Assembly (NCBI GenBank): GCA_030431615.1
Contig: JAUIID010000008.1
Coordinates: forward strand, 1 to 50,748
Length of the DNA: 50,748 nt
From: Alphaproteobacteria bacterium
GTDB lineage: Bacteria > Pseudomonadota > Alphaproteobacteria > Geminicoccales > Geminicoccaceae
Reading direction: 5' to 3'
Shown: piece by piece, positions 16,559 to 47,345 of the stretch
Position numbering within the stretch: the stretch's first letter is position 1
Layout of the letters: the number at the start of each line of letters is the position of its first letter
Notes under the pieces: generated by a model
Database searches by the model: none
What the model was told of the DNA's origin: nothing
The model's input: the letters and a program-made list of their open reading frames with translations, nothing else
Translations under genes and position numbers: made by a program

Positions 16559-16646
16559 GGAGGGATGGCCGAGTGGTTTAAGGCGCACGCCTGGAAAGCG
16601 TGTTGGGGGCAACTCCTCACGGGTTCGAATCCCGTTCCCTCCGCCA
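16559..16646 (+). tRNA. tRNA-Ser (anticodon GGA)
   Basis: An 88-nt cloverleaf with long variable arm. Acceptor GGAGGGA (16559-16565) pairs with TCCCTCC (16636-16642). The anticodon GGA is at 16593-16595, the T-loop GGTTCGAATCC is present, discriminator G is at 16643 and the encoded CCA at 16644-16646. The long variable arm and GGA anticodon give serine (UCC/UCU codons). Confidence 0.97.
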
Positions 16647-26175: not shown

Positions 26176-26499
26176 TGTTCGTCATCCTTTTGTCGCTGAG
26201 GTCGCTGAGGTCGGCGCGCGCGGCACTTGTGCCCGGCGCGGCTATGCGAACCCAACCACTGCAGGCTGCCAGCGTTCCATCGTGAGCCTCGCTCACGTCG
26301 GGCCGTGCGATGATGCCGTCGGAGGGTAACCTACACCTCCCGGTACAGCCGGCAAGCCGCTGGTTTCAACCTCGGCGATCCGTCATGGCGCCGCGCTTTC
26401 AGAACCGTTCGGGTTCCCTCTTACGCGGCTGCCTCGACGGCGAGGCGGCGGGCTCCAAAAATGCCTTTGGCCCGCAAGGGAAGGATGATCGACCAGAGA
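26176..26499. other. Intergenic stretch without genes
   Basis: It holds the upstream region of the sulfotransferase gene and leads into the repeat element. There is a short direct duplication GTCGCTGAG-GTCGCTGAG near 26192-26209. I see no gene here. Confidence 0.4.
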
Positions 26500-26628
26500 A
26501 GGATTTATAACCTATTTCGTATCCCCTGTCCAGATGCCCTTCGGTTCGTTCGGCAAATCAGGCTTTCCGGCCGGCGGGCGGGCCGGGAGAGGCGGCGAAA
26601 GCCGCGGCGGGGCTCGCCCCGGGCTCTC

Positions 26629-26750
26629 GGGTTCGTTGGTCGGCGCTCGGGTTCGTTCGCGATTCGGTGGGTTCGATTGCCGATTTGGCGGGTTCGTTCG
26701 CCCTTTCCCTGGGTTCGTTCGTCGGTACGGCGGGTTCGTTCGCCCGCAAC
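26629..26750. repeat. Six 20-21 bp tandem units (copy A)
   Basis: Each unit starts GGGTTCG(T/A)T and is followed by a variable 11-12 bp. The unit length is two turns of B-DNA. Confidence 0.9.
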
Positions 26751-26906
26751 TGTCGCGTTATACGCGACACTTGTCATAATACAGTCGCGGTATCCGCGAC
26801 ACGAGGGGCCTACTGTCGCGTTATATGCGACACTTGCCGTCAAACTGTCGCGTATAGCGCGACAGTCCCGGGTTTGGCGGAAGCGATTGTCGCAGAATCT
26901 GCGACA
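26751..26906. repeat. Five TGTCGC-N-GCGACA palindromes (copy A)
   Basis: Palindromes lie at 26751-26769, 26784-26800, 26814-26832, 26845-26865 and 26888-26906. The second reads GTCGCGGTATCCGCGAC where copy B has GTCGCGTTATACGCGAC. The fifth reads GTCGCAGAATCTGCGAC where copy B has GTCGCGGAATCCGCGAC. Both differences keep the dyad. Confidence 0.95.
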
Positions 26907-27124
26907 TGCCGAGAGCCGGCGAATGGAAGGGCGGAGGGCCTCGGCGGGCTTGCATCCGACGGCCAGGGTCAACCGGGATGCAACGCCGACTGCTATGTTT
27001 TCTACAACCAGCTTAATAGGGAGCAAGTCATCCGAACAGGCATCTCCGAAGAATTACGTCATGCGTCGCTCCTGTCAATGCTCGATCCCGGCGCGAGCAG
27101 GTTGTCTGGAAAAACATTCTTCAG

Positions 27125-28336
27125 TCAACTGAATCTTGTTGTAAATTCTTCTATTGCATTACACGTCTCATCGATGTCATCGAGAGAATTGTATAAATGG
27201 GCCGAAACCCTCAACAATCCACCATCAGCACCCGCCCGATGCACTAACGGATGCGCGCACATGGAACCGGATCGCACCATGATATTGTGGTTTTCGCTTA
27301 GCGAGGTCGCCACCGTATCCGATGTGATGTGAGGCGTTGAGAATGCAAAGGACACCAACGGCAATCGATCGGGCTGATCCGACATCAGAGAGCGGGCGCC
27401 GGGAATTCGAACTCCTCGCTCAGACATTTGATTGGAGAGCGTAACCAAGTGCGCTCGACGCTCTTCAATCGGCATGGCGCTCAAGAACTGCGCGGCAGCG
27501 GCGAGTCCGATCACCCCTGAAATGTTCGGTGTGCCAGCTTCAAAGCGATAGGGGACGTCTCTCAATACAAAGCCATCGCGAGTAACCGATGCGACGCTAC
27601 CACCACCAATGACGTACGGAGTCAAACGCTCCAACGCCTCGGGTCGTCCAGCCAAAACTCCAGTTCCGGGCGGCCCGAACATTTTGTGACCGCTGAAAGC
27701 AAGAAAATCACAGCCGAGCTGATCGAATTCAATCGGTTCGTGGCTAGCGGTTTGCGAGGCGTCAACACATGTGCTTATTCCATGTCGAGCGGCAATGGCG
27801 CATAAAGTTCGAATGTCGTTGACCGCACCTGTAACGTTCGATCCAGAAGAAAAGACAAACATACGTGGTCGGTTCGTCGCGATCACTTCCTCGAGGGTTC
27901 GCCCATCTACGGGCGCGCAAACCTCATGTTCGATCCATGCGAGTTCGCAAAGCCGCATCCAGGGCAATATGTTGGAGTGATGCTCCCCGATCGGAAGCGC
28001 CACTACGTCCGAGCGGGTGAATCCAAACCCATTGGCCACCATGTTGATCGACTCTGTCGCATTCTTCGTGAATATAATATTTCGTGGTGCCGTGCCGACA
28101 AATCGACCCATGACCTCACGCGCGGTCTCGTATTTCTCTGAAGCAATTTCAGAGAGCCTATGATGACCGCGATGAATATTAGCGGTATACGAAGTTGCAT
28201 ATTCGCGCTCTGCCTCAATGACGGTAGAGGGCTTCAACGTCGTCGCCGCCGAGTCCAAGTATCGCAGTGGCTTACCCGATCCGCAACTGGCCAACATCGG
28301 GAAACAATGCCGCAAGGCAGGTAGGTCAAATTTCAT
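27125..28336 (-). CDS. SufS/CsdA-like cysteine desulfurase
   Basis: A 403-residue class V aminotransferase. It has YLDSAATTLKP near the N-terminus, PLP-contacting HH at 119-120 (IGEHHSNILPW), Asp192, the Schiff-base Lys218 in SGHKMFGPPGTG and the persulfide Cys360 in SGSMCAHP. All catalytic residues are present and length is normal, so it is probably active in taking sulfur from cysteine. Base composition is clearly lower in G+C than the neighbours. No suf or isc partners are nearby. It lies 18 nt downstream of a PaaK-like adenylase gene and forms an operon with it, which suggests sulfur transfer to an activated carboxylate, not Fe-S assembly (inference). Confidence 0.88.
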   Translation of the reverse strand: MKFDLPALRHCFPMLASCGSGKPLRYLDSAATTLKPSTVIEAEREYATSYTANIHRGHHRLSEIASEKYETAREVMGRFVGTAPRNIIFTKNATESINMVANGFGFTRSDVVALPIGEHHSNILPWMRLCELAWIEHEVCAPVDGRTLEEVIATNRPRMFVFSSGSNVTGAVNDIRTLCAIAARHGISTCVDASQTASHEPIEFDQLGCDFLAFSGHKMFGPPGTGVLAGRPEALERLTPYVIGGGSVASVTRDGFVLRDVPYRFEAGTPNISGVIGLAAAAQFLSAMPIEERRAHLVTLSNQMSERGVRIPGARSLMSDQPDRLPLVSFAFSTPHITSDTVATSLSENHNIMVRSGSMCAHPLVHRAGADGGLLRVSAHLYNSLDDIDETCNAIEEFTTRFS

Positions 28337-28354
28337 AGACAGTATACCAGCATA

Positions 28355-29851
28355 TTACTCCGCATACACCATCGGTGTTTTGTATGAACGCGCAAAAGTT
28401 AACGCCTCAACCCTCCTGATACTAATGTCATGATCGAACAACAATTCTCGCAGCGCGTCGACAAGTGCCAAGGGTACAAAATTCTCTTCGCTTTCCACAA
28501 GTACGTCAAGCCGAATACTATTGTCTTTTTTGCTACAGGCAAGTTGGTATGCACCCTCGCGAATGAATGGATCAACAGCGTTATCAATAGCCCGGGGGGT
28601 GACAAAACCGGTCTCTGTCGGAATCGCCTCAATTGATCTGCCATGAAATGTGAAACACCGCCAGTTCGATGCGGCGCATCCACAGTGTATCTCACCCTCA
28701 ATGCATCCCATATCCCCGGTTTCATATCGCATGAGCGGACTCACACGATTCGCGAGGGTCGTCACAACGATCGAGCCGACATTCTTCGACACCTCGCGCG
28801 TTCGCGGATCGACGAATTCCACATAGCACTGGCTCTCATTCAGATGCCAGTTGCCCTCGGAGCATTCAAACCCGACGTTGCAACCGCCAAGCTCGGTCGC
28901 AGAATAAATATTGCGCACGGGGCATCTATATCTTTTCTCAAGAAGTCGTCGCTGGCACTCCGGCATAAATTGGAAAGACGTCAGTATTATATCAACGCTG
29001 GGAACCGCCAACCCTAATTCTTGCGCCTTGTCGGCCAAAATGTGCAAATAATATGGATTGCCAAATATTATCGACGATCGAAATTCAGAAATTTCCGAGA
29101 AAGTATAATCAATAAAGTCCCTATCGATCCTTGAAATGTCGAATGTCGATTCGAGATACAAAGTGTGATCGCCAATCATCCGGTCTGAGCGCTTTTTCCG
29201 TCCAATATTGCAGTCATTTGAACCGCATAGCGGTGATGTCAAAACTGATGTTCGAGGATGGCCGTCAACGAATGCAACGTCCCAAACAGACTCGTAGTCG
29301 GGCGGCATTCGGTCAATCCGCAAATCAGTCAGCACCTGAACCCGATCGGACGTTGAACCGCTTGTGCGCGCGAAACGCAGCGCTCCATCTGACAAAAGCG
29401 TCGAAGTATCAATGTTACTACTGATTAAATTCAGAAACTCTCTTTTCAAGATGTCCTTATTAATTATTGGCAGCTCGACGATTTCATCTAATGATGTAAT
29501 TTCGTTGCGCCAGTAGGCATCGCCAATGCTGTAGAATGGGACGAATGCTTTCGCATGCTCATAAACTTCAGAGATACGCTCAAGCGTTTGAGAATCCCGA
29601 AGGTTGGTAACTATCGGTCGTTGCCGATCCTGCACCTGTTCGATCGGAAGATCGCCGACGCACCCCACTTTTTTTAAGAACGATAGTATTTCGTCCGGTA
29701 TTTCAGTTTCCGAGGTAACGTCCACTGCCCCGAATTCGATATCAAATATAAAGCCAGTACGACCGTCCCGAACTTGCAAGAGATCGGGTGCCAATAGCGA
29801 TACAGAAACGCTATGATGGCAGATCGATTTCAGTTTCTGCTCGATACTCAT
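28355..29851 (-). CDS. PaaK-like adenylate-forming enzyme
   Basis: A 498-residue protein. ANL-fold motifs are present: TSGSTS (163-168), IYSATELGGCNVGFECSEG (about 355-373) and SPLMRYETGDMG (about 415-426). This resembles phenylacetate-CoA ligase and CapK. The first 65 residues (SLLAPDLLQVRDGRTGFIFD, then EIPDEILSFLKKVGCV) are extra to the fold and have a small-domain look, possibly like a PqqD/RRE domain; this is a guess. ATG 29851 (MSIEQKLKS) is used because upstream codons belong to an IS630 remnant. Low G+C marks it as acquired. The substrate is unknown. Confidence 0.8.
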   Translation of the reverse strand: MSIEQKLKSICHHSVSVSLLAPDLLQVRDGRTGFIFDIEFGAVDVTSETEIPDEILSFLKKVGCVGDLPIEQVQDRQRPIVTNLRDSQTLERISEVYEHAKAFVPFYSIGDAYWRNEITSLDEIVELPIINKDILKREFLNLISSNIDTSTLLSDGALRFARTSGSTSDRVQVLTDLRIDRMPPDYESVWDVAFVDGHPRTSVLTSPLCGSNDCNIGRKKRSDRMIGDHTLYLESTFDISRIDRDFIDYTFSEISEFRSSIIFGNPYYLHILADKAQELGLAVPSVDIILTSFQFMPECQRRLLEKRYRCPVRNIYSATELGGCNVGFECSEGNWHLNESQCYVEFVDPRTREVSKNVGSIVVTTLANRVSPLMRYETGDMGCIEGEIHCGCAASNWRCFTFHGRSIEAIPTETGFVTPRAIDNAVDPFIREGAYQLACSKKDNSIRLDVLVESEENFVPLALVDALRELLFDHDISIRRVEALTFARSYKTPMVYAE

Positions 29852-29871
29852 AACGGCCAGGAAAAACTCCG

Positions 29872-30488
29872 TGGTGGATTGCTTCCAACACCTGATTCCC
29901 ACATTTGTCGGCGGCGATGATGGCCTTCGGGTCCGCCCACGAGGCGGACGTGAAGTGGTAGGTCCAGAAGAATGGCGTGACGATTCAGCCAAGCTTGCGC
30001 CTTGGCGTGCTTGTGAGCGGTGCAGGTGTCGAACATGACGTGGAGCGAATTGCCGACCGGTATCTGCCGTTCGGCGGCATTCAGCAACTTATGTCGATGG
30101 CGCTGCGGACTTCGGCCGATGACGGTGCCATCGAGCATGTAGAGCGCGGCAGAGAGGATGATGGTGCCATCGCGCTTGTGGTTGGGGGCGCTCGGCGGCC
30201 TCACTTCATCGGCAGGCCCAACTGGGTCGGTCTCAGCGTCTGAGACTGCGCCTTCTCGTCGATCGACAACATTACCGCACGTTCCGCCGGGTCGAAACAG
30301 AGCCCGATCACTTCTTCGCCCTTGGCGGCGGAGACTTGATCGTTGAACAGCCTGGACTTCAGGAAGCGATCTGCCGCCAGCCCATTCTCTTGCCAGATTC
30401 GGTCCACCATTTCGGTCGAGACGCGATTCCCCTCGGTCATAACCCGCACGGTCCAATATGTGGCACTGGCCGTCCGTTCTACCTCCAA
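29872..30488 (-). pseudogene. IS630-family transposase remnant
   Basis: Frames must be switched at least twice to follow the protein. One part reads RVSTEMVDRIWQENGL and AVMLSIDEKAQSQTL...TQLGLP (DDE region start). Another reads HKRDGTIILSAALYMLDGTV and HVMFDTCTAHKHAKAQAWL. A third reads HFTSASW then IAADKCGNQVLEAIH. The N-terminal DNA-binding third is missing. It is therefore dead and truncated. It ends about 20 nt upstream of the adenylase start and may have brought or disrupted that operon's promoter. Confidence 0.85.
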
Positions 30489-30574
30489 TGCAAGCCGCAG
30501 CCCCCCGCCGCCCTCGTCACCGCAAGCTTCAGCCGGACCCTACCGCGCATCAGACCATCCACGTGCTCCTCGCA

Positions 30575-30613
30575 GGAAAAAGGCGCACCTCTTTGTCGAG
30601 ATGCGCCTTTTCC
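30575..30613 (-). terminator. Intrinsic terminator after tiny peptide gene
   Basis: On the minus strand a stem GGCGCA(T)CTC, loop GACAAA, GAG(G)TGCGCC is followed directly by TTTTT. The stem extends with GGAAAA/TTTTCC on the outside. It starts three bases after the stop codon of the 21-residue ORF. Confidence 0.8.
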
Positions 30614-30616
30614 GCG

Positions 30617-30682
30617 CTACACTGCGGTGACAGTGGCCACCGGCTTCGCGTTCGGCTTCGGGTTGGCGAGCTTGATCTTCAT
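30617..30682 (-). CDS. Putative 21-residue peptide gene
   Basis: A tiny ORF with ATG at 30682, preceded 7 nt upstream by a strong Shine-Dalgarno (AAAGGGGA) and followed at once by an intrinsic terminator. The product begins MKIKLANPKPNAKP and ends VATVTAV; it has four Lys, three Pro and no Cys. I know no family for it. Options are a bioactive or RiPP-type precursor, an antitoxin-like or leader peptide, or an mRNA-level element. It lies upstream, on the same strand, of the IS630 remnant and the adenylase/desulfurase pair, but the terminator separates it from them transcriptionally. Confidence 0.5.
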   Translation of the reverse strand: MKIKLANPKPNAKPVATVTAV

Positions 30683-30781
30683 GTTCCAGTCCCCTTTGGG
30701 TTACTGTTTCAGAAGCGTTGAAGCCACGAGCGCCCGGATCACTTCAGGAATGCACGGCGTTCGGCACTCCAACAAGGTGCG

Positions 30782-30810
30782 AGATCACAACAGACCAGCG
30801 AGAATGTCAA
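30782..30810 (-). promoter_or_regulatory. Putative promoter of tiny peptide gene
   Basis: A perfect TTGACA (minus strand, 30810-30805). Weak -10 candidates are TGATCT (17-bp spacer, 30787-30782) or TGTGAT (15-bp spacer). It lies about 100 nt upstream of the peptide ATG. Confidence 0.35.
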
Positions 30811-31441
30811 CTAAGGTTATTCGATTTTGTGCGTGGCAGCCTGATTGTGCGGGGTTAGGCAATGTTTTGCTCTTCGACGTTTAAAGCAGCCGCGAAATCG
30901 CTGACTTTCATGATTTTGATGAGCCGGCCGATCCGGTCGGCACCATCGAGCAGACACCCACTGCGCATTCGGCGGTGTCGGCGGGCCCGATGCGGCTGCC
31001 TCCCCACGGGTGTTCAAGGTTCAACGCTGGTGCAAGGCATACGCTGATGCAACTGCCCATCCATCGCGCACCAGGAGACGACAACGGCTGAGGAATTGCC
31101 TTTCAGCGCGGAATGCGTTCTGCATTATGCGATTTTAAATAAAATAAACGCATCAATGAAATATGGACGAGTTATAGATCTAGCACCAGTTCATTCGTTC
31201 TCAGATATGCCCGTCATTATAACTATAATATGCCTTACTATTTATCAAATCAGCCCTGTTTTTGGTATTCCGATAGCGAATTACTATCGGAAACATAGGA
31301 ATAATGATAATAAATTCACAGGATTGGCGCTGATTGCACAAATCGTTCATCCGCCAAACAGCGCTTCCTTGAACAGATGTTCAGAATGTCGACTTGGTGT
31401 CGTCAGCTGGAGCCGGCCAAAAAAAAAGGTTGCGGATGGGC
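30811..31441. other. Non-coding stretch with A+T-rich patch
   Basis: No gene is supported here. About 31100-31400 is strongly A+T-rich compared with its surroundings. An open frame from 31096 runs through it into the mtlK remnant, but it has no domain, no ribosome-binding site and changes composition halfway. Confidence 0.5.
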
Positions 31442-40373: not shown

Positions 40374-40625
40374 TGATTCATCCTGCCCCTTCTCCGCGTG
40401 GCCCGGTGCAGGCGACCGGGTGAGCGCTGAAAGCTCCGAGCATGATCTACCCGTTCGCGCCGCCGCGCCGCGACCGGCGGCGGGTGAACCACTGTAGGAT
40501 TTATACCCTATGACGCGCGCGCTGTCCAGCGCTTGTCGGGTTCGATCGGCAAAAGCGGGTTCCTGGCGTGTCTGCGGGTGCGGCAAGGCGGTGGAAAGGC
40601 ACGGCTGGGCTGATTTTGGGCTCTC

Positions 40626-40747
40626 GGGTTCGTTGGTCGTCGGTCGGGTTCGTTCGTCGATTCCCTGGGTTCGATCGTCGATTTGGCGGGTTCGTTCGCC
40701 CTTTCCGTGGGTTCGTTCGTTGGCCCTGCGGGTTCGTTCGCATGGAA
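40626..40747. repeat. Six 20-21 bp tandem units (copy B)
   Basis: Units start GGGTTCG(T/A)(T/C); the first is 20 bp, the rest 21 bp. In copy A the first two units are 20 bp, so the frames of the two copies differ. Confidence 0.9.
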
Positions 40748-40904
40748 CTGTCGCGTTATACGCGACAGTTGTCATAATACTGTCGCGTTATACGCGACAC
40801 CAGGGGCCAACTGTCGCGTTATATGCGACACTTGCCGTCAAACTGTCGCGTATAGCGCGACAGTCCCGGGTTCGGCGGTGACGGTTGTCGCGGAATCCGC
40901 GACA
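40748..40904. repeat. Five TGTCGC-N-GCGACA palindromes (copy B)
   Basis: Palindromes lie at 40748-40768, 40781-40799, 40812-40830, 40843-40863 and 40886-40904. All arms are perfect except one position in the third, which has G opposite T in both copies. Confidence 0.95.
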
Positions 40905-40948
40905 TCCCGAGGGGCGGCAAACGGGCCGTTGGATGGCTTCGGCAGGAT

Positions 40949-41667
40949 TATTCGGGGAAATTCTGCGCCGGTCGGCGATATTCGTCGGCGTGGCGGTGAA
41001 AACCGCGCTGAATTATCTCGTCGTGTGCTGGCAGTTCTTTTGTGGTCGCTGCATCTCGTCCGGCAAACGCGTCCGGCCAAGCTGTCAACGAAAAGAGCGG
41101 CCATGCTGGTAGCGCTACGACACCTCGGCGCTGGGTGCAACAGTGACCAAGTGTGAGACTGGACGAGATCGATCCACCTCGCTGCGCGTCAGTTCGGTCG
41201 GTAGCTTTTCCCATGGCGCTACGAGAACAGCACCGAAGTTCGGGCGTCGAATGGCGAAGGTCGCAAAGATCACGCCAGATCACACAATCAGAGACGCTGC
41301 GTCTGATAAGAAAGATATCTCAGGCTGAAATTCTGCTTCACATTGGCAGTGCCTGGTTGTATCTATTAGGATAATACGCTATCATTTTATCCGCCGTCGC
41401 TGAAAGGTAATATCGTCCTCGCATCGGGCATTGTGTGAGGCAGACAGCGCTCACCCACTAAGCCCAGATGTTAGCGTGTTGGCGGATTCGTCGCTGTTCG
41501 CGCAGGGAGCGTGGTCCGCGACCCGATGACCGAGCGTCACAGCTGAGAGATGGTGGGCGCGTCGCCTAGTGGAACCGAGTCGCCACATGGTAGAAACGCT
41601 CGTCAATGAGAACAGATCCTCTCGATGTCACTGTCATTGGAATCAATCGTTCCAGGGAGATCCAAAA
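40949..41667. other. Intergenic region upstream of the giant secreted protein gene
   Basis: No gene is supported. Base composition falls in G+C from about 41200 onward, matching the acquired gene downstream. Confidence 0.5.
41357..41385 (+). promoter_or_regulatory. Possible promoter upstream of giant secreted protein gene
   Basis: TTGTAT (41357-41362) and TATCAT (41380-41385) with a 17-bp spacer in an A+T-rich patch. It would give a 5' leader of about 280 nt. Confidence 0.3.
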
Positions 41668-44600
41668 ATGAAAAATCTCTTTGTCGCGAGACTGCATCCA
41701 TTTTTGGCAATTCTACCCTTACTCCCCTTAATATTTATCTCCTCCTCTGCAAAATCGCAGGTCGCGTCAACCGATCCAGCTTCAGGAATAAGTCCCAACC
41801 TTATGCGAGTACAGCCGTTAGACAACAGCACACCGACGGCGCTGTTCATGGGGGTTTGGGAACCAATGCTCGGCGGTGGCAGCTGGTTGTCTTTTGATCT
41901 TGACTTTACAACAGCGGCTGACCCTCTCGACCTCCTTGAGGCACGAGTCACCTATCGCGACGATACGGGTGCAGCAGTCGCGAATGCGACCGTTGGCCCC
42001 GATGAACTCGCTCTCGCCGTACTAAAGCAAATGGACGCTACCACAGGCACCTCTCGTGCACCCGCGTTTGACAAGACCGGCGGAACGGTTACTGATTTTG
42101 GCAGTATCGCCAGCCAGTGCATACACGATCTCGAGATCGATTCAATGGGCTTCATAGTCGCCGGTGGCACCGGCGTATTTTCTCCTCCACTTGAATTTGG
42201 CTCAAGGCCCCACGGTTCCCTTATTGCTCGTTATACAACGACGGGTGAACTTCATAGCTCATTTGACGAAGATGGAAAGAATAATGTAACTTTTGAACAC
42301 CCTTTCGATAGTAGTGCCGAATTTCATCATGGGATTAACGCCATAGCAATAGATCCACTGTTACAGATTTGGACCGTCGGCTACGCTATTCTTGATGATT
42401 TTCCGGACGATGGAGAGGCCACGAGCCGATGGGCGCTATCGCACCTGGAGTTTAGTGGAGAACTTGATGAGGCGGTTGGAGCTAAAGTTTTGGGCTCAAC
42501 GACGGACGGTGGTCGACTATTTGATGCTCTCTTTCATAACGGACGTTTAATTGCTGTAGGAACTCTCGGCGAACTCGGTTCCATCGGAACTCAGGACCAG
42601 CAAACTGTCGCTGCCATCGCTGCGTTTGATCTGGCTGGCGAAATTGATCCGAGTTTCGGTCTAAAGACTGCCACATTCTTGCCTGATGATACAGTTTCCG
42701 CATTCACAGCAGTCGCCATTGATAGCGCGGACCGCATCTATGCTACCGGGTGGTTCGGTCTACCCGACCCAGACATTCCTGATCCTGAACCTGACGACAT
42801 CATTCATGAGGATCGGACTTGGTTCGTCGTAAGGTATCTTCAAAGTGGAATCGTAGACGAGACCTTTGGAATCGCTGGACTCTCTGAGATCGACTTCGTT
42901 GGGTTTGACCGCGGATACCCTAAGGCAATTGCCATTGATGGCTCCGGTCGAATCGTGACAGTTGGTACCGTCGAGGTCGGGCAAGGCATCGGCTCGCAGA
43001 ACGCGGCTATTTCAAGGCTTCTGCCTACCGGTCAACCCGATCCAACCTTCCAACCCCTACAACCGGGCGTTGGGCAACTTGTAACCGATGGCGGTGCCTC
43101 CCCCATAAGCGCAGGAGGCGTTGCCGTTGACGGAGATGATCGCATCATTGTCTCTCTTGGACCTTCGCTCCTGCGTCTCGTTAGCGACGATGGGAGCCTA
43201 GACCCGAGCTTCGGCGACCAGGGGAGGGCTTTTCTGCACCATCCGGACACCAACGATAATTTCGGAGGGACCTCCATTGTCGTCGATGGTAGTCGCATCC
43301 TGGTGGGTGGCTGCAGTGGTGATAATTTTGCCGTCGTGCGACTGCTCGAAGATGGGAGACTTGACAGCGACGGGAACTCGATCCCGCCCAACTCAAGAAT
43401 AATACTAGCGTTTCCGGATGAAGCGTTGCCCGACGAGACCCGCGTAATGCCTCTGCCTGATCCCCTTCCAACAACGGTCGATGTAGAACTCGATGTAGGC
43501 CCAAGTGATGCCGACGGCGTCTGGACTCTCAGTTGGGTCGACATTCCAGTTCTTGATCAACCTGGGAAAACTTTTCTCAACGGATCCTACATCTTTCCTC
43601 TTGCGCCAACGCAAGTCAATGTCTCGCTGCCTGATGATGCAACATGCCAAGCGGCAAACACCGCCACCCCCGAAGCCCCAAAACTGCGGTACGGAATTTC
43701 TCAGGCCCACGAACTTCGTTTCGAAGATAACTATTCTGGTCACAGAAATCTAGTGCAATCGATCAATGGTCCGAACGCGTCAAATGACCAACGTTTTGCT
43801 TATGATTTCGTTGTCGAAGATCAAAGTGGTCACAGATACCTACAAACGGACAGCGATTGCCTACCAACATCGGAAATCACGAACGCTTCCTCGTATATTT
43901 GGGGTCAAAGTGTCGTCGCGATTGCAGATGGCGACATCGTCAACATTGACACCGCCCAACCGGACAATCCTGAGCCTGGCACCAAAACCCCTGACATACC
44001 GCGTGGTGGCAATACTATTACTATCGATCACCGCAATGGCCAGTATTCTCGCTATTCACATTTGATGGCAAACTCGGTTCCAAAGAAATTTGCTGAAATA
44101 TCTTCCTGTTCCGGAATGGATGTTTGCACAGTCAAGCAAGGCGAGGTATTGGGTCTCGTGGGCAATTCGGGCAACTCGACCGGCCCACATTTGCATTTTG
44201 CGCTAATGGACGGCGCGGACGCCGACCAAGATGAGGGGAGACCGATCTCTTTCAATAACACGCTCGTCGGTGGAATGATTCAGACCAATGTCGGATTCCA
44301 CACGGGTACCATTTTCAGCGGCATTCTACCTCAATCATCGAAAATTCAGCTGAATACACCGTCTTCATCCGGAGCAATTTGGGAGGTCGAGAACAACGAT
44401 TCACTCGAATCTCACCAAGCTCTGAGCCTTCCAGCGACTGTAACCGGAAGCATATCGTCACTAGAAAATCCGACCCTTGCGGTTCGAGGGGATCCAATCG
44501 AGGATATATACCGCTTCGAGGTCAAAACGCGTGCGCAGCTGAAAATCGAACTCGTAGCCGAGAGCGATGGGGTCAATCTTGATGTCTACCTTCTGAACGA

Positions 44601-45672
44601 CGGTCTGCAAATGCTGAATCTCGATCGTGCCGGATGGGGACCGACTTCGAACGAGACCGTCTCGATGGTTGTTCCGCCCGGACACTACTACGTTGGGGTG
44701 TCAGAAGCTGAGAATTTCCCAGGCAGCGACTACAAATTGATTGTCGATGCTCGTCCATTTGCGTGGAAATATGCCGCGAAGGTCGTCTGCGGCGAACAAA
44801 GTAATCCAGGGGACGGTCGGCTTACCGTTGGCACCTACGCCACCACGGTAAACATCCATCATCCTGGTGGCACACCGGCGTTCTTATCGAAACAACTGGC
44901 ATTAGCGTTTCCTCCAGATGAACAACAACCTGGGCAAACATTGGATATCGGCGAAGATAGTCTTGGTTATGATCAAGCAGTCAAAACCGATTGCGGCGAC
45001 ATTTTGGAGACTGCGCTTTCCCCACAAAATCTTGGAGAAAATACGTACTTTGAGGGCTTCGTTGTGATCCAAAGCACCGAAAAACTAACTGTCTCTGCGG
45101 TCTATACTTCTGCGGATCTGACCGACGGACGCGGCCAGCGATCAATAGATGTCGAGACTGTTCCGGAGCTTGGGTTGGGCGTCGATTTGCAAATATCAAA
45201 GTCGTTACTACGACCTGAAGAGATCGACAAACAAAGCCAGTTAGGACAGCGGCTCATTGCTCTACAGGACAGTCTGACCGAGGATGTATGGCATAACTTT
45301 TTTGTGTATCAGATTGAGATTGGGAATCTTGGGCCTGCGACTGCAACTGATGTCAGGGTCGTTGACATCCTAGAACTGCGGTCGGAAGACAACGTTGGAG
45401 TTCTCATAGATGAATCTGCATTTGAGTTTCCGCCTGGCGGAAAACTGATTGGCCTTGAATCCTTATCGCCGCTGAGATCTACACGCGCAGAGATTTCGGT
45501 CGGTGGCATTGCGCCTGGCACAACCAAGACGCTGAGGCTCGCAGCAGTGGCAGTGGGAATTGCACTTATTGAAACTCCGCAAGGTTCAGTTCAGAATACG
45601 GCAACCATACAGGCTGGCGAGGCGGAACTTTTACAAGACGACAATACAGTACAAATTACAACTTTATTTTGA
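41668..45672 (+). CDS. Giant secreted multidomain protein: delta-60 repeats, M23, PPC, DUF11-like
   Basis: A 1334-residue protein with signal peptide (1 to about 29). Residues about 135-570 hold delta-60-type repeats (DETFGIAGLSEIDF, DPSFGDQGRAFLHH), probably a beta-propeller. An M23 peptidase-like domain spans about 677-855: Asp713 in FAYDF, HRNGQYSRYSHL and His841-Leu-His843 in GPHLHFAL. A usual first zinc His before Asp713 is not obvious, so activity is uncertain. A PPC domain lies at about 905-1030 (WEVENNDSLESHQ...PPGHYYVGVSEAE), and a DUF11-like domain at about 1170-1310 (QIEIGNLGPATATDVRVVDI). GGGAGA precedes ATG 41668. Low G+C suggests transfer. It is probably a cell-surface or released protein acting on cell wall. 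Confidence 0.8.
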   Translation: MKNLFVARLHPFLAILPLLPLIFISSSAKSQVASTDPASGISPNLMRVQPLDNSTPTALFMGVWEPMLGGGSWLSFDLDFTTAADPLDLLEARVTYRDDTGAAVANATVGPDELALAVLKQMDATTGTSRAPAFDKTGGTVTDFGSIASQCIHDLEIDSMGFIVAGGTGVFSPPLEFGSRPHGSLIARYTTTGELHSSFDEDGKNNVTFEHPFDSSAEFHHGINAIAIDPLLQIWTVGYAILDDFPDDGEATSRWALSHLEFSGELDEAVGAKVLGSTTDGGRLFDALFHNGRLIAVGTLGELGSIGTQDQQTVAAIAAFDLAGEIDPSFGLKTATFLPDDTVSAFTAVAIDSADRIYATGWFGLPDPDIPDPEPDDIIHEDRTWFVVRYLQSGIVDETFGIAGLSEIDFVGFDRGYPKAIAIDGSGRIVTVGTVEVGQGIGSQNAAISRLLPTGQPDPTFQPLQPGVGQLVTDGGASPISAGGVAVDGDDRIIVSLGPSLLRLVSDDGSLDPSFGDQGRAFLHHPDTNDNFGGTSIVVDGSRILVGGCSGDNFAVVRLLEDGRLDSDGNSIPPNSRIILAFPDEALPDETRVMPLPDPLPTTVDVELDVGPSDADGVWTLSWVDIPVLDQPGKTFLNGSYIFPLAPTQVNVSLPDDATCQAANTATPEAPKLRYGISQAHELRFEDNYSGHRNLVQSINGPNASNDQRFAYDFVVEDQSGHRYLQTDSDCLPTSEITNASSYIWGQSVVAIADGDIVNIDTAQPDNPEPGTKTPDIPRGGNTITIDHRNGQYSRYSHLMANSVPKKFAEISSCSGMDVCTVKQGEVLGLVGNSGNSTGPHLHFALMDGADADQDEGRPISFNNTLVGGMIQTNVGFHTGTIFSGILPQSSKIQLNTPSSSGAIWEVENNDSLESHQALSLPATVTGSISSLENPTLAVRGDPIEDIYRFEVKTRAQLKIELVAESDGVNLDVYLLNDGLQMLNLDRAGWGPTSNETVSMVVPPGHYYVGVSEAENFPGSDYKLIVDARPFAWKYAAKVVCGEQSNPGDGRLTVGTYATTVNIHHPGGTPAFLSKQLALAFPPDEQQPGQTLDIGEDSLGYDQAVKTDCGDILETALSPQNLGENTYFEGFVVIQSTEKLTVSAVYTSADLTDGRGQRSIDVETVPELGLGVDLQISKSLLRPEEIDKQSQLGQRLIALQDSLTEDVWHNFFVYQIEIGNLGPATATDVRVVDILELRSEDNVGVLIDESAFEFPPGGKLIGLESLSPLRSTRAEISVGGIAPGTTKTLRLAAVAVGIALIETPQGSVQNTATIQAGEAELLQDDNTVQITTLF

Positions 45673-45987
45673 TGGACTTGGCATTTCATTTGAGCTCGTC
45701 GTCGGATATTTCGGAATAACAAGAGGTGCCTATTTGATGCGTGATAACACCAGTTGCAGACGGCGCCTTGGCGCGGATCGATGATTTGCCGATCAGGAGT
45801 GCGGCATGGCAATCCTGACCTCTCCCTATCATCCGAGCCATTGGGAGCTATAGTTTTCCGATGTTCGATCCTTGAAGGGGGAAGGCTGTTGAAGCGCGGT
45901 CGGTCCAGCTAGGAACCCCCGGATTGATCTGCGTCACCGATCCCGTAGTGGAGTGTATTCGGATTGTCGGTCGACTTTTCTGTCCAT
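45673..45987. other. Intergenic stretch without genes
   Basis: I see no coding region and no clear terminator in the 315 nt after the giant gene. Composition returns to higher G+C along it. Confidence 0.4.
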
Positions 45988-46110
45988 TTAGCATTCTTGA
46001 GTGACGAATCGCTGGACCGTTTCCCACGGCCTTCGGCCCTGGTTCCGATAGCCCAGATGCGGCCTCTCCCGGTTGTAGTGGTGGAGCCGGGCGGTCGATG
46101 GCGATTGCGC
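45988..46110 (-). pseudogene. Integrase-core transposase C-terminal remnant
   Basis: The minus strand encodes about 35-40 residues typical of the end of IS3/IS481-type integrases: HHYNRERPHLGYRNQGRRPW followed by ETVQRFVTQEC and a stop. The rest of the gene is absent; the IS630 element lies 130 nt further on. Confidence 0.75.
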
Positions 46111-46242
46111 CCAGGTCATGTTGTCGCTTCGGGGCGGGCTGATTGCCGCTGAGACGACCGTAGCGGGAGAGCGTCTGGACTGGCGCTCAGCGACAGAGGC
46201 GGTCTAACGGAGATCGACCGGACTTGCCAACGGCTTCAGCTA

Positions 46243-47345
46243 GAGCGGGTTCCTGAAAGATAGAATCATTTCAGGGATTCCCAACTTTTGATAGATGTGA
46301 TTCAAGCTGTTGGCTGGACGAGGAGGCCAGCCATGGATGCCGCGTCCCTATTCGAACGACCTGCGCCAGAAGATAGTCGAGACGGTCCGGCACGTCCCGC
46401 CGGCAGGCTGCCGGGCAGTTCAAGGTCAGTGTGAGCTTCGTCATCAAGCTGCTGCAGCGGGTGCAGGCGACCGGTGACGTGTCGCCGGCGCAGTTCGGCG
46501 GCTACAAGGTCTCACCCCTGGCGGCGCACGAGGCGGATCTGCGGCGCTGGGTGGCCGAGCGCTCGGAGATCACCATCGCCGAGCTGCAGTCACTCCTGTC
46601 GGAGCGTGGCACGAAGACGAGCCCGGCGGCCCTTGCGAGGTATCTCGGCAAGCTGGGCCTGACGCGAAAAAAAGTCGGCAAGAGCCGCCGAGCAGTCGCG
46701 CGCGGACTTCGCCGCGGCCCGCCAGGCCTGGCTCGGCTGGCAGCGCGGATTGAGCCCCGGCAAACTGGTCTTCGTCGACGAAACCTGGACGGCCACCAAC
46801 ATGGCGCCGCGCTACGGCCGTGGCCCGAAGGGGCAACGCGTCGATGGTATCGCACCGCACGGACACTGGAAGACGACTACCTTCGTCGCCGCACTTCGAC
46901 ACGATCGGATCACCGCACCCTGTGTGTTCGACGGACCGATCAACGGCGCCGCCTTCAGGGCCCTCCGCCGCCTCCTGGCGGCGTCCATTCCATGGATCGG
47001 ATCATCCGTCTGCTGACGGATGATGGACCGAGCAGGCCCTCGTGCCGACGCTGGACCCCGGCGACATCGTCATCCTCGACAATCTCGGCAGCCACAAGGT
47101 CGCCGGCGTCAGGACAGCCATCGAGGCCAAAGGCGCCAGGCTCGTCTACCTGCCGCCCTACAGCCCGGATCTGAACCCGATCGAGCAGGTCTTCGCCAAG
47201 CTCAAGCATCTCTTGCGCAAGGCCGGCGCCCGAACCGTCGAGACCCTGCACGATGCCATCGGCAGCCTGCTCGACGCGTTCTCGCCAACAGAATGTCGTA
47301 ACTACATCACAAACTCGGGCTATTCCAGGTAAACGGGAAACGCTC
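46243..47345 (+). mobile_element. IS630-family insertion sequence
   Basis: About 1.1 kb. The ends are GAGCGGGTTCC (left) and GGGAAACGCTC (right), imperfect inverted repeats, each flanked by TA, the target dinucleotide that IS630 elements duplicate. The transposase inside is broken. Confidence 0.8.
46337..47332 (+). pseudogene. IS630-family transposase, frameshifted
   Basis: ATG 46337 (MPRPYSNDLRQKIVETV) has AGGAGG 10 nt upstream. The frame is lost near 46389, resumes as TSRRQAAGQFKVSVSFVIKL, is lost again at an A7 run (46667-46673), resumes as SPGKLVFVDETWTATNMAPR, and shifts once more near 47000 before VPTLDPGDIVILDNLGSHK and PPYSPDLNPIEQVFAKL. The DDE residues (VDE, LDN, NPIE) all remain. 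The A7 shift could once have been programmed, as in some IS630 relatives; the others are mutations. Confidence 0.88.

Follow-up and report, generated by a model that had tools for sequence, protein, structure and literature searches.

Palindromes of a dispersed intergenic element as probable protein half-sites in a helically phased two-part array next to a predicted outward promoter

Two copies of an element about 460 bp in length are found in the window (the whole stretch of DNA analysed, 50,748 nucleotides), and each copy ends in five palindromes. In a preliminary description, both arms of palindromes 2 and 5 were seen to have changed together between the copies, which was taken as selection on the dyad, either for a DNA-binding dimer or for an RNA stem. 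The locus thus raises the question of which of the two the palindromes serve, and what the complete element might do. The features of both copies are listed by position in the window; the promoter hexamers are predictions from sequence matches, and the palindromes are from a TGTCGC-N7-GCGACA search.

40488..40949, minus strand (the promoter strand): element copy B, whole, as the extent of blastn homology with copy A
40500..40505, minus strand: copy B predicted -10 hexamer TATAAA of the leftward promoter
40523..40528, minus strand: copy B predicted -35 hexamer TGGACA, 17 bp from the -10
40538..40553, plus strand: copy B promoter-proximal direct-repeat box GGGTTCGATCGGCAAA
40626..40740, plus strand: copy B direct-repeat array, six GGGTTCGTTCG-type units with a 20-21 bp period
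40749..40767, no strand: copy B palindrome 1
40781..40799, no strand: copy B palindrome 2
40812..40830, no strand: copy B palindrome 3
40844..40862, no strand: copy B palindrome 4
40886..40904, no strand: copy B palindrome 5, 42 bp past palindrome 4, which is one extra helical turn
26492..26951, minus strand: element copy A, whole, as the extent of blastn homology with copy B
26504..26509, minus strand: copy A predicted -10 hexamer TATAAA
26527..26532, minus strand: copy A predicted -35 hexamer TGGACA
26543..26555, plus strand: copy A promoter-proximal direct-repeat box
26629..26742, plus strand: copy A direct-repeat array, six units
26751..26906, no strand: copy A five palindromes, starting at 26751, 26783, 26814, 26846, and 26888

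The two copies match at 81% over 463 bp (blastn), and similarity stops outside the element. Ten TGTCGC-N7-GCGACA sites (at most one mismatch) occur in the window, against 0.45 expected from shuffles. The letters first quoted for both copies are present exactly at their positions, and palindrome 3 does have G opposite T in copy A and copy B alike. The paired changes keep perfect dyads within the quoted 17-mers, but not over the full 19-bp dyad of copy A palindrome 2: this is AGTCGC...GCGACA, as against TGTCGC...GCGACA in copy B. Only one arm has changed here, one base beyond the quoted letters, and the cited example is thus imperfect as a 19-bp dyad.

The genome (5.33 Mb in 314 contigs, 96.9% complete) contains at least 38 scorable elements, including both window copies, with 181 palindromes in total. 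The set was defined by blastn matches together with the exact-dyad sites listed, giving 36 genomic stretches around matches plus the window's two; a 39th element (L179), truncated at a contig end, was left out of the counts. The dyad and promoter-box motifs are rarely found outside these elements: of the 169 exact TGTCGC-N7-GCGACA sites per strand, 167 fall inside the 38 (the reversed control pattern has 0 sites), as do 16 of 18 exact promoter boxes if the truncated 39th element, which holds one of them, is included; the other two boxes are in coding sequence. In order, an element consists of a left box TAGGATTTATARCCTA, ~17 bp, GTCAAG, a box GGGTTCGTTCGGCAAAAT, a spacer, the direct repeats, 19 bp, and the dyads. 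The direct-repeat array has about five GGGTTCGTTCGTCGAWTC units at intervals of mostly 20-21 bp, and the 19 bp between the last repeat and the first dyad is found in 35 of the 38 elements. Of the 38 elements, 32 have five dyads, 4 have four, 1 has three, and 1 has two. Each dyad is 19 bp long, and all 143 intervals between them are near whole helical turns (32 bp in 101 cases, 31 bp in 39, 42 bp in two, and 41 bp in one); both 42-bp intervals are those of the window copies. GANTC reaches a density of 18.1/kb in the direct-repeat arrays (70 occurrences) vs 1.35/kb in the flanks, and it forms 25 of the 181 dyad cores. Variations were also seen: three elements (L075, L077, and L079) each have two direct repeats inverted, and many elements carry, in either orientation, a 13-bp motif TCACGATNGCTTA in the linker that joins dyads 2 and 3 (examples are L062, L070, L071, and L074 in this genome and L130 and L136 in same-genus genomes), which is possibly a third binding site or a flip.

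With 181 units available, the paired changes could be viewed against the whole family. Between copies the arms are 98.4% identical, and across the 38 elements they carry 17 mismatches in 2172 positions, whereas the linkers are only 39-56% identical, and selection on the dyad was thereby upheld. Compensatory change was not. The preliminary description had named one-arm changes as frequent as paired ones as the outcome that would speak against it; over the six arm pairs, 17 changes were one-sided and none was two-sided. The arms are fixed rather than covarying. At pair 7/13, the site of the palindrome 5 change, G..C occurs 62 times, G..T 55, A..C 53, and A..T 11, so that 73 units are complementary vs 97.7 (sd 6.3) after shuffling, an expectation that, like all those for arm pairs, disregards relatedness among units; complementarity here is rarer than in the shuffle. 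Pair 8/12, the site of the palindrome 2 change, is complementary in 116 units vs 91.6 shuffled, but this excess is due to the 25 units with a GANTC core, and none is left without them (91/156 vs 96.2). At pair 9/11, most units are non-complementary, the usual core being the asymmetric TTATA/TATAA.

The same element is present in two same-genus genomes (86% and 82% complete), where the dyads are made of half-sites of the form TGNGYCR. Common to both lineages is a 19-bp frame, TG...CR-N5-YG...CA, at an interval of 31-32 bp; the middle triplet of the arm differs between species, and the layout is unchanged, with same-genus dyads lying at 29, 61, 92, 123, and 155 from the last repeat. Using a pattern chosen by reading those elements, with two mismatches allowed, 51 units were obtained from 14 of 18 elements (four gave none); near-identical copies inflate these counts. 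Complementary arms were found in 7/51 units at pair 3/17 (12.3 shuffled), 24/51 at 4/16 (29.9), 21/51 at 5/15 (24.7), and 10/51 at 7/13 (26.0). A shared frame with non-complementary arms is explained by a dimer that reads its half-sites independently, not by a paired stem. The dyad is thus two independently conserved half-sites, as for a protein dimer, and the first of the two original alternatives is supported. More generally, paired changes between two palindrome copies need not mean base pairing, which corrects a common inference.

The idea that the palindromes are transcript stems maintained by compensatory change has lost nearly all of its appeal, and we consider it very improbable. It has in its favor that the arms could form 6-bp stems closing 7-nt loops, the two original paired-change examples, and the surplus complementarity at pair 8/12; yet that surplus comes from one core class, 0 of 17 arm changes are two-sided, and the non-pairing A..C occupies 7/13 in 53 of 181 units. 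Same-genus arms are no more complementary than shuffled ones, particularly at 3/17 and 7/13, and a dyad spacing in whole helical turns is likewise not what a stem would call for. No Rfam family reaches its gathering threshold in the element; below threshold, two microRNA families and one sRNA were reported with E values of 0.003-0.44, far under gathering scores. The Rfam match in the window is a tRNA gene elsewhere, at 16559-16643 on the plus strand (RF00005).

The other end of the element is of a different nature. Read leftwards, the left box is TTGNNN-N17-TATAAT, a predicted sigma70-type promoter pointing out of the element; -35 and -10 hexamers are both present with the ~17 bp spacing expected for sigma70. 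The N17 spacing is found in 27 of the 35 scored elements (3 of the 38 were below the box threshold and were left out) and in 14 of 15 scored same-genus elements. By a simple consensus count devised for this analysis, the mean promoter score is 8.06 vs 6.13 for the other strand and 5.81 for shuffles; in the same-genus elements, the corresponding values are 9.67, 6.07, and 5.94. A direct-repeat box is located 7-10 bp upstream of the -35 hexamer in most elements and 17-20 bp upstream, about one turn more, in several. One direct-repeat motif thus occurs at two places, about -50 of the promoter and in the distal array.

All elements are intergenic; using gene calls from a simple codon-usage model devised for this analysis, 0 of 38 overlap a called gene. 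The promoter-side gene is oriented towards its element for 27 of 37 elements (P 0.0076), and for 13 of 16 in the same-genus set; the right-hand gene shows no orientation bias (20 and 17). In 16 of the 27 convergent cases, the left box is -4 to +15 bp from the stop codon of the promoter-side gene. For these 27 of the 37 elements, the predicted promoter would then fire against the 3' end of its neighbor, an odd arrangement for an ordinary regulon. Among 40 neighbor proteins scanned, no shared function was seen (they are metabolic and other, unrelated proteins), nor was any transposase or par gene present. Orientation relative to replication is not clear, local GC skew relative to the element being positive in 25 of 38.

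The two sides of the element also differ in base composition. Across 36 elements, GC content over 3 kb is lower on the palindrome (PAL) side than it is on the side of the promoter (Wilcoxon P 0.0014), and flanks below 60% GC are found on 6 of 38 right sides, those of both window copies and one defence-like island among them, vs 0 of 36 left sides. In the window, low-GC islands at 26950-31400 and 41000-46400 start at the PAL end of copies A and B, with a GC content of 0.42-0.62 (in 300-bp steps) vs about 0.65-0.73 in the surroundings. They encode a class-V aminotransferase and a 1367-amino acid protein with M23 peptidase, PPC, and DUF11 domains; a second end of these islands was looked for to the right of the window copies and was not found. 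Another low-GC island on the PAL side (L051:7308-11018) contains a GmrSD-type protein and a Schlafen/AlbA_2 protein, a defence-like cargo. At L049:6665-7279, one called ORF matches both the BrnT toxin and the BrnA antitoxin, as a fusion or a read-through of two genes.

Element locations are not stable within the genus. Only two of the 18 same-genus elements share their adjoining genes with an element found here (L130/L077 and L139/L081); the adjacent genes there are 64% and 76% identical, others nearby being 76-86%, and the direct-repeat (DR) and PAL modules resemble those of other copies in their own genome rather than the ortholog. All three of the other left genes tested have an ortholog (81%, 68%, and 81%) in a same-genus genome without an element behind it, one of these sites being judged on 417 bp of sequence. 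In a same-genus genome (L156, past the gene that ends at 2388), the expected place of the element is taken by another repeat, which has inverted ends (GAGGCTGTCCGAGAAGTT... / ...AACTTCTCGGACAGCCTC) and is perhaps an IS-like insertion. Between copies A and B of the window, the DR and PAL blocks are 88-91% alike, in contrast to the promoter module, the similarity of which ranks 19 of 41 and is thus average. Because of the own-genome resemblance at shared sites, the empty sites, and this contrast between modules, the pattern suggests that array blocks are copied or converted between loci and that sites are gained and lost. Relatives often lack the element at orthologous sites, which makes a role for the host at fixed loci doubtful.

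The ends of complex transposons carry arrays of binding sites for their transposase, and the arrays described here could likewise be transposase or recombinase sites used in trans by a non-autonomous element, with an outward promoter at its end and an insertion preference for the 3' ends of genes. The dispersal of copies, the 3/3 empty orthologous sites and only 2/18 shared locations, the closeness of the left box to stop codons, and a PAL side that faces lower-GC, foreign-looking DNA (including the GmrSD/Schlafen island) all agree with this. However, an unsystematic look at the ends of the two window copies revealed no terminal inverted repeats or target duplication, the scanned neighbors include no transposase, and the genome has no RAYT gene; moreover, old copies each retain intact sites and promoter, unlike dead insertions. 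Mobility as the main explanation seems to us unlikely, though worth keeping in mind.

Outside the genome, the element is limited to one genus in the samples searched. Among 60 relatives searched, this genome alone had a dyad-pair pattern; among 385 genomes of the class, it alone had a repeat-triple pattern. With blastn, the element was detected in 3 of 32 genomes, which all belong to the genus. Complete elements were also present on two MAG contigs, L087 (labelled Chloroflexia), which carries a CobT gene, and L088 (labelled Myxococcales); since these taxon labels disagree with each other, we infer that the contigs were misbinned. Two exact patterns had 0 matches in viral_contigs, and blastn of the element found no match in plasmids or phages; a phage or plasmid origin was discarded on these grounds. 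Tandem palindromes of an unrelated TGTCGCCTTCAAGGCGACA type, also with 32-bp spacing, were noticed in a MAG labelled Akkermansia muciniphila (L089 1627-1709 and L090 7133-7215).

A further possibility is that proteins for folding or positioning the nucleoid are loaded at the arrays, as chromosome-organising or segregation sites (like parS clusters, SlmA sites, or matS), the promoter being incidental. The roughly 38 copies, intergenic and dispersed, each a multi-site array with phased spacing and motifs exclusive to the element, would suit this role, but the outward promoter with its own box is well kept, locations turn over, and confinement to one genus in the samples searched does not fit; we regard this explanation as improbable. 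A parS/ParB centromere in particular was rejected, as the 16-mer parS consensus has 0 matches in the window with up to 3 mismatches.

The reading that we favor, with some but not strong confidence, is that the palindromes are one half of a two-part, helically phased protein-docking array, carried by a dispersed intergenic element with an outward sigma70-type promoter at its end; it is drawn from sequence patterns throughout. One protein would read the dyads as a dimer, with TGTCGCR as the half-site of each subunit here and TGNGYCR as that in the relatives, and a second protein would read the direct repeats; bound to the box at about -50, the latter might switch the promoter on or off. Arrays occupied on one face of the helix could form a single assembly, perhaps looped, that would control outward transcription into the neighbor, usually antisense to its 3' end. 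Copying of array blocks between loci would keep the family uniform within a species. The five-by-five layout could equally serve transposition or chromosome organisation.

A bolder form of the docking-array reading is put forward tentatively, its chances being short of even: a genus-restricted, previously undescribed nucleoprotein system in which two dedicated proteins and about 39 cassettes, with five plus five phased sites, would drive or gate transcription mostly antisense to the adjacent 3' end. The specificity of the dyad dimer would have switched between sister species in all copies together, within the fixed frame TGnnnCR-N5-YGnnnCA; in this form, the concerted switch may be likened to centromere or drive-type concerted evolution, as a bacterial analogue. 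A published description of the element was not found in the open-access literature searched. If the docking-array reading holds, dozens of two-array docking platforms in one genome changed specificity in all copies between sister species with frame and spacing fixed, a natural experiment in how a DNA-binding protein co-evolves with a large set of dispersed sites. The notion of dispersed intergenic repeats as regulated antisense promoters at gene ends would become testable as well.

Several known systems share parts of this arrangement. In Fis-activated rrn promoters, a sigma70 promoter has activator sites upstream of it at whole turns (about 31 and 41 bp), and the element similarly has whole-turn-spaced sites upstream of a predicted one; unlike them, it has two different motif arrays, is dispersed through the genome, and has its promoter aimed at the 3' ends of genes. 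Plasmid centromeres, such as R1 parC, consist of repeat sets around a promoter, bound by one dedicated protein; repeat sets around a predicted promoter are found here also, but in about 38 chromosomal copies and with no par genes among the scanned neighbors. BIME, REP, and REPIN-RAYT families are dispersed intergenic palindromic units, mosaics of motifs located mostly 3' of genes. The element resembles these in having short palindromic repeats dispersed in intergenic DNA; it differs in its fixed order, in which five direct repeats are followed by five dyads, in the whole-turn spacing of these, and in its conserved outward promoter. Membership in REPIN-RAYT is ruled against by the absence of a RAYT (Y1_Tnp) gene, for which there were 0 matches in this 96.9% complete genome, 5 of 14 control genomes being positive.

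The Caulobacter CIR are CcrM-associated intergenic repeats of about 110 bp with conserved GANTC and two long RNA-type arms (PMC2229807). An intergenic repeat family with conserved GANTC is thus a shared trait, and that length and those arms set CIR apart (PMC2229807). A CcrM-linked CIR, or control by CcrM through GANTC, was rejected: GANTC is enriched, yet a RAMA search found no CcrM-type RAMA domain methylase in the genome, the control Caulobacter being positive. Correia/NEMIS of Neisseria are small dispersed elements with putative promoters, a protein-binding site, terminal inverted repeats, and target duplications (PMC2229807). The first three traits are like those of our element; the last two were not noticed where copies A and B of the window end, and the multi-site phased array is a further difference. 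Overall, we place the element as a variant among the dispersed intergenic elements, and a lesser case can be made for a separate kind.
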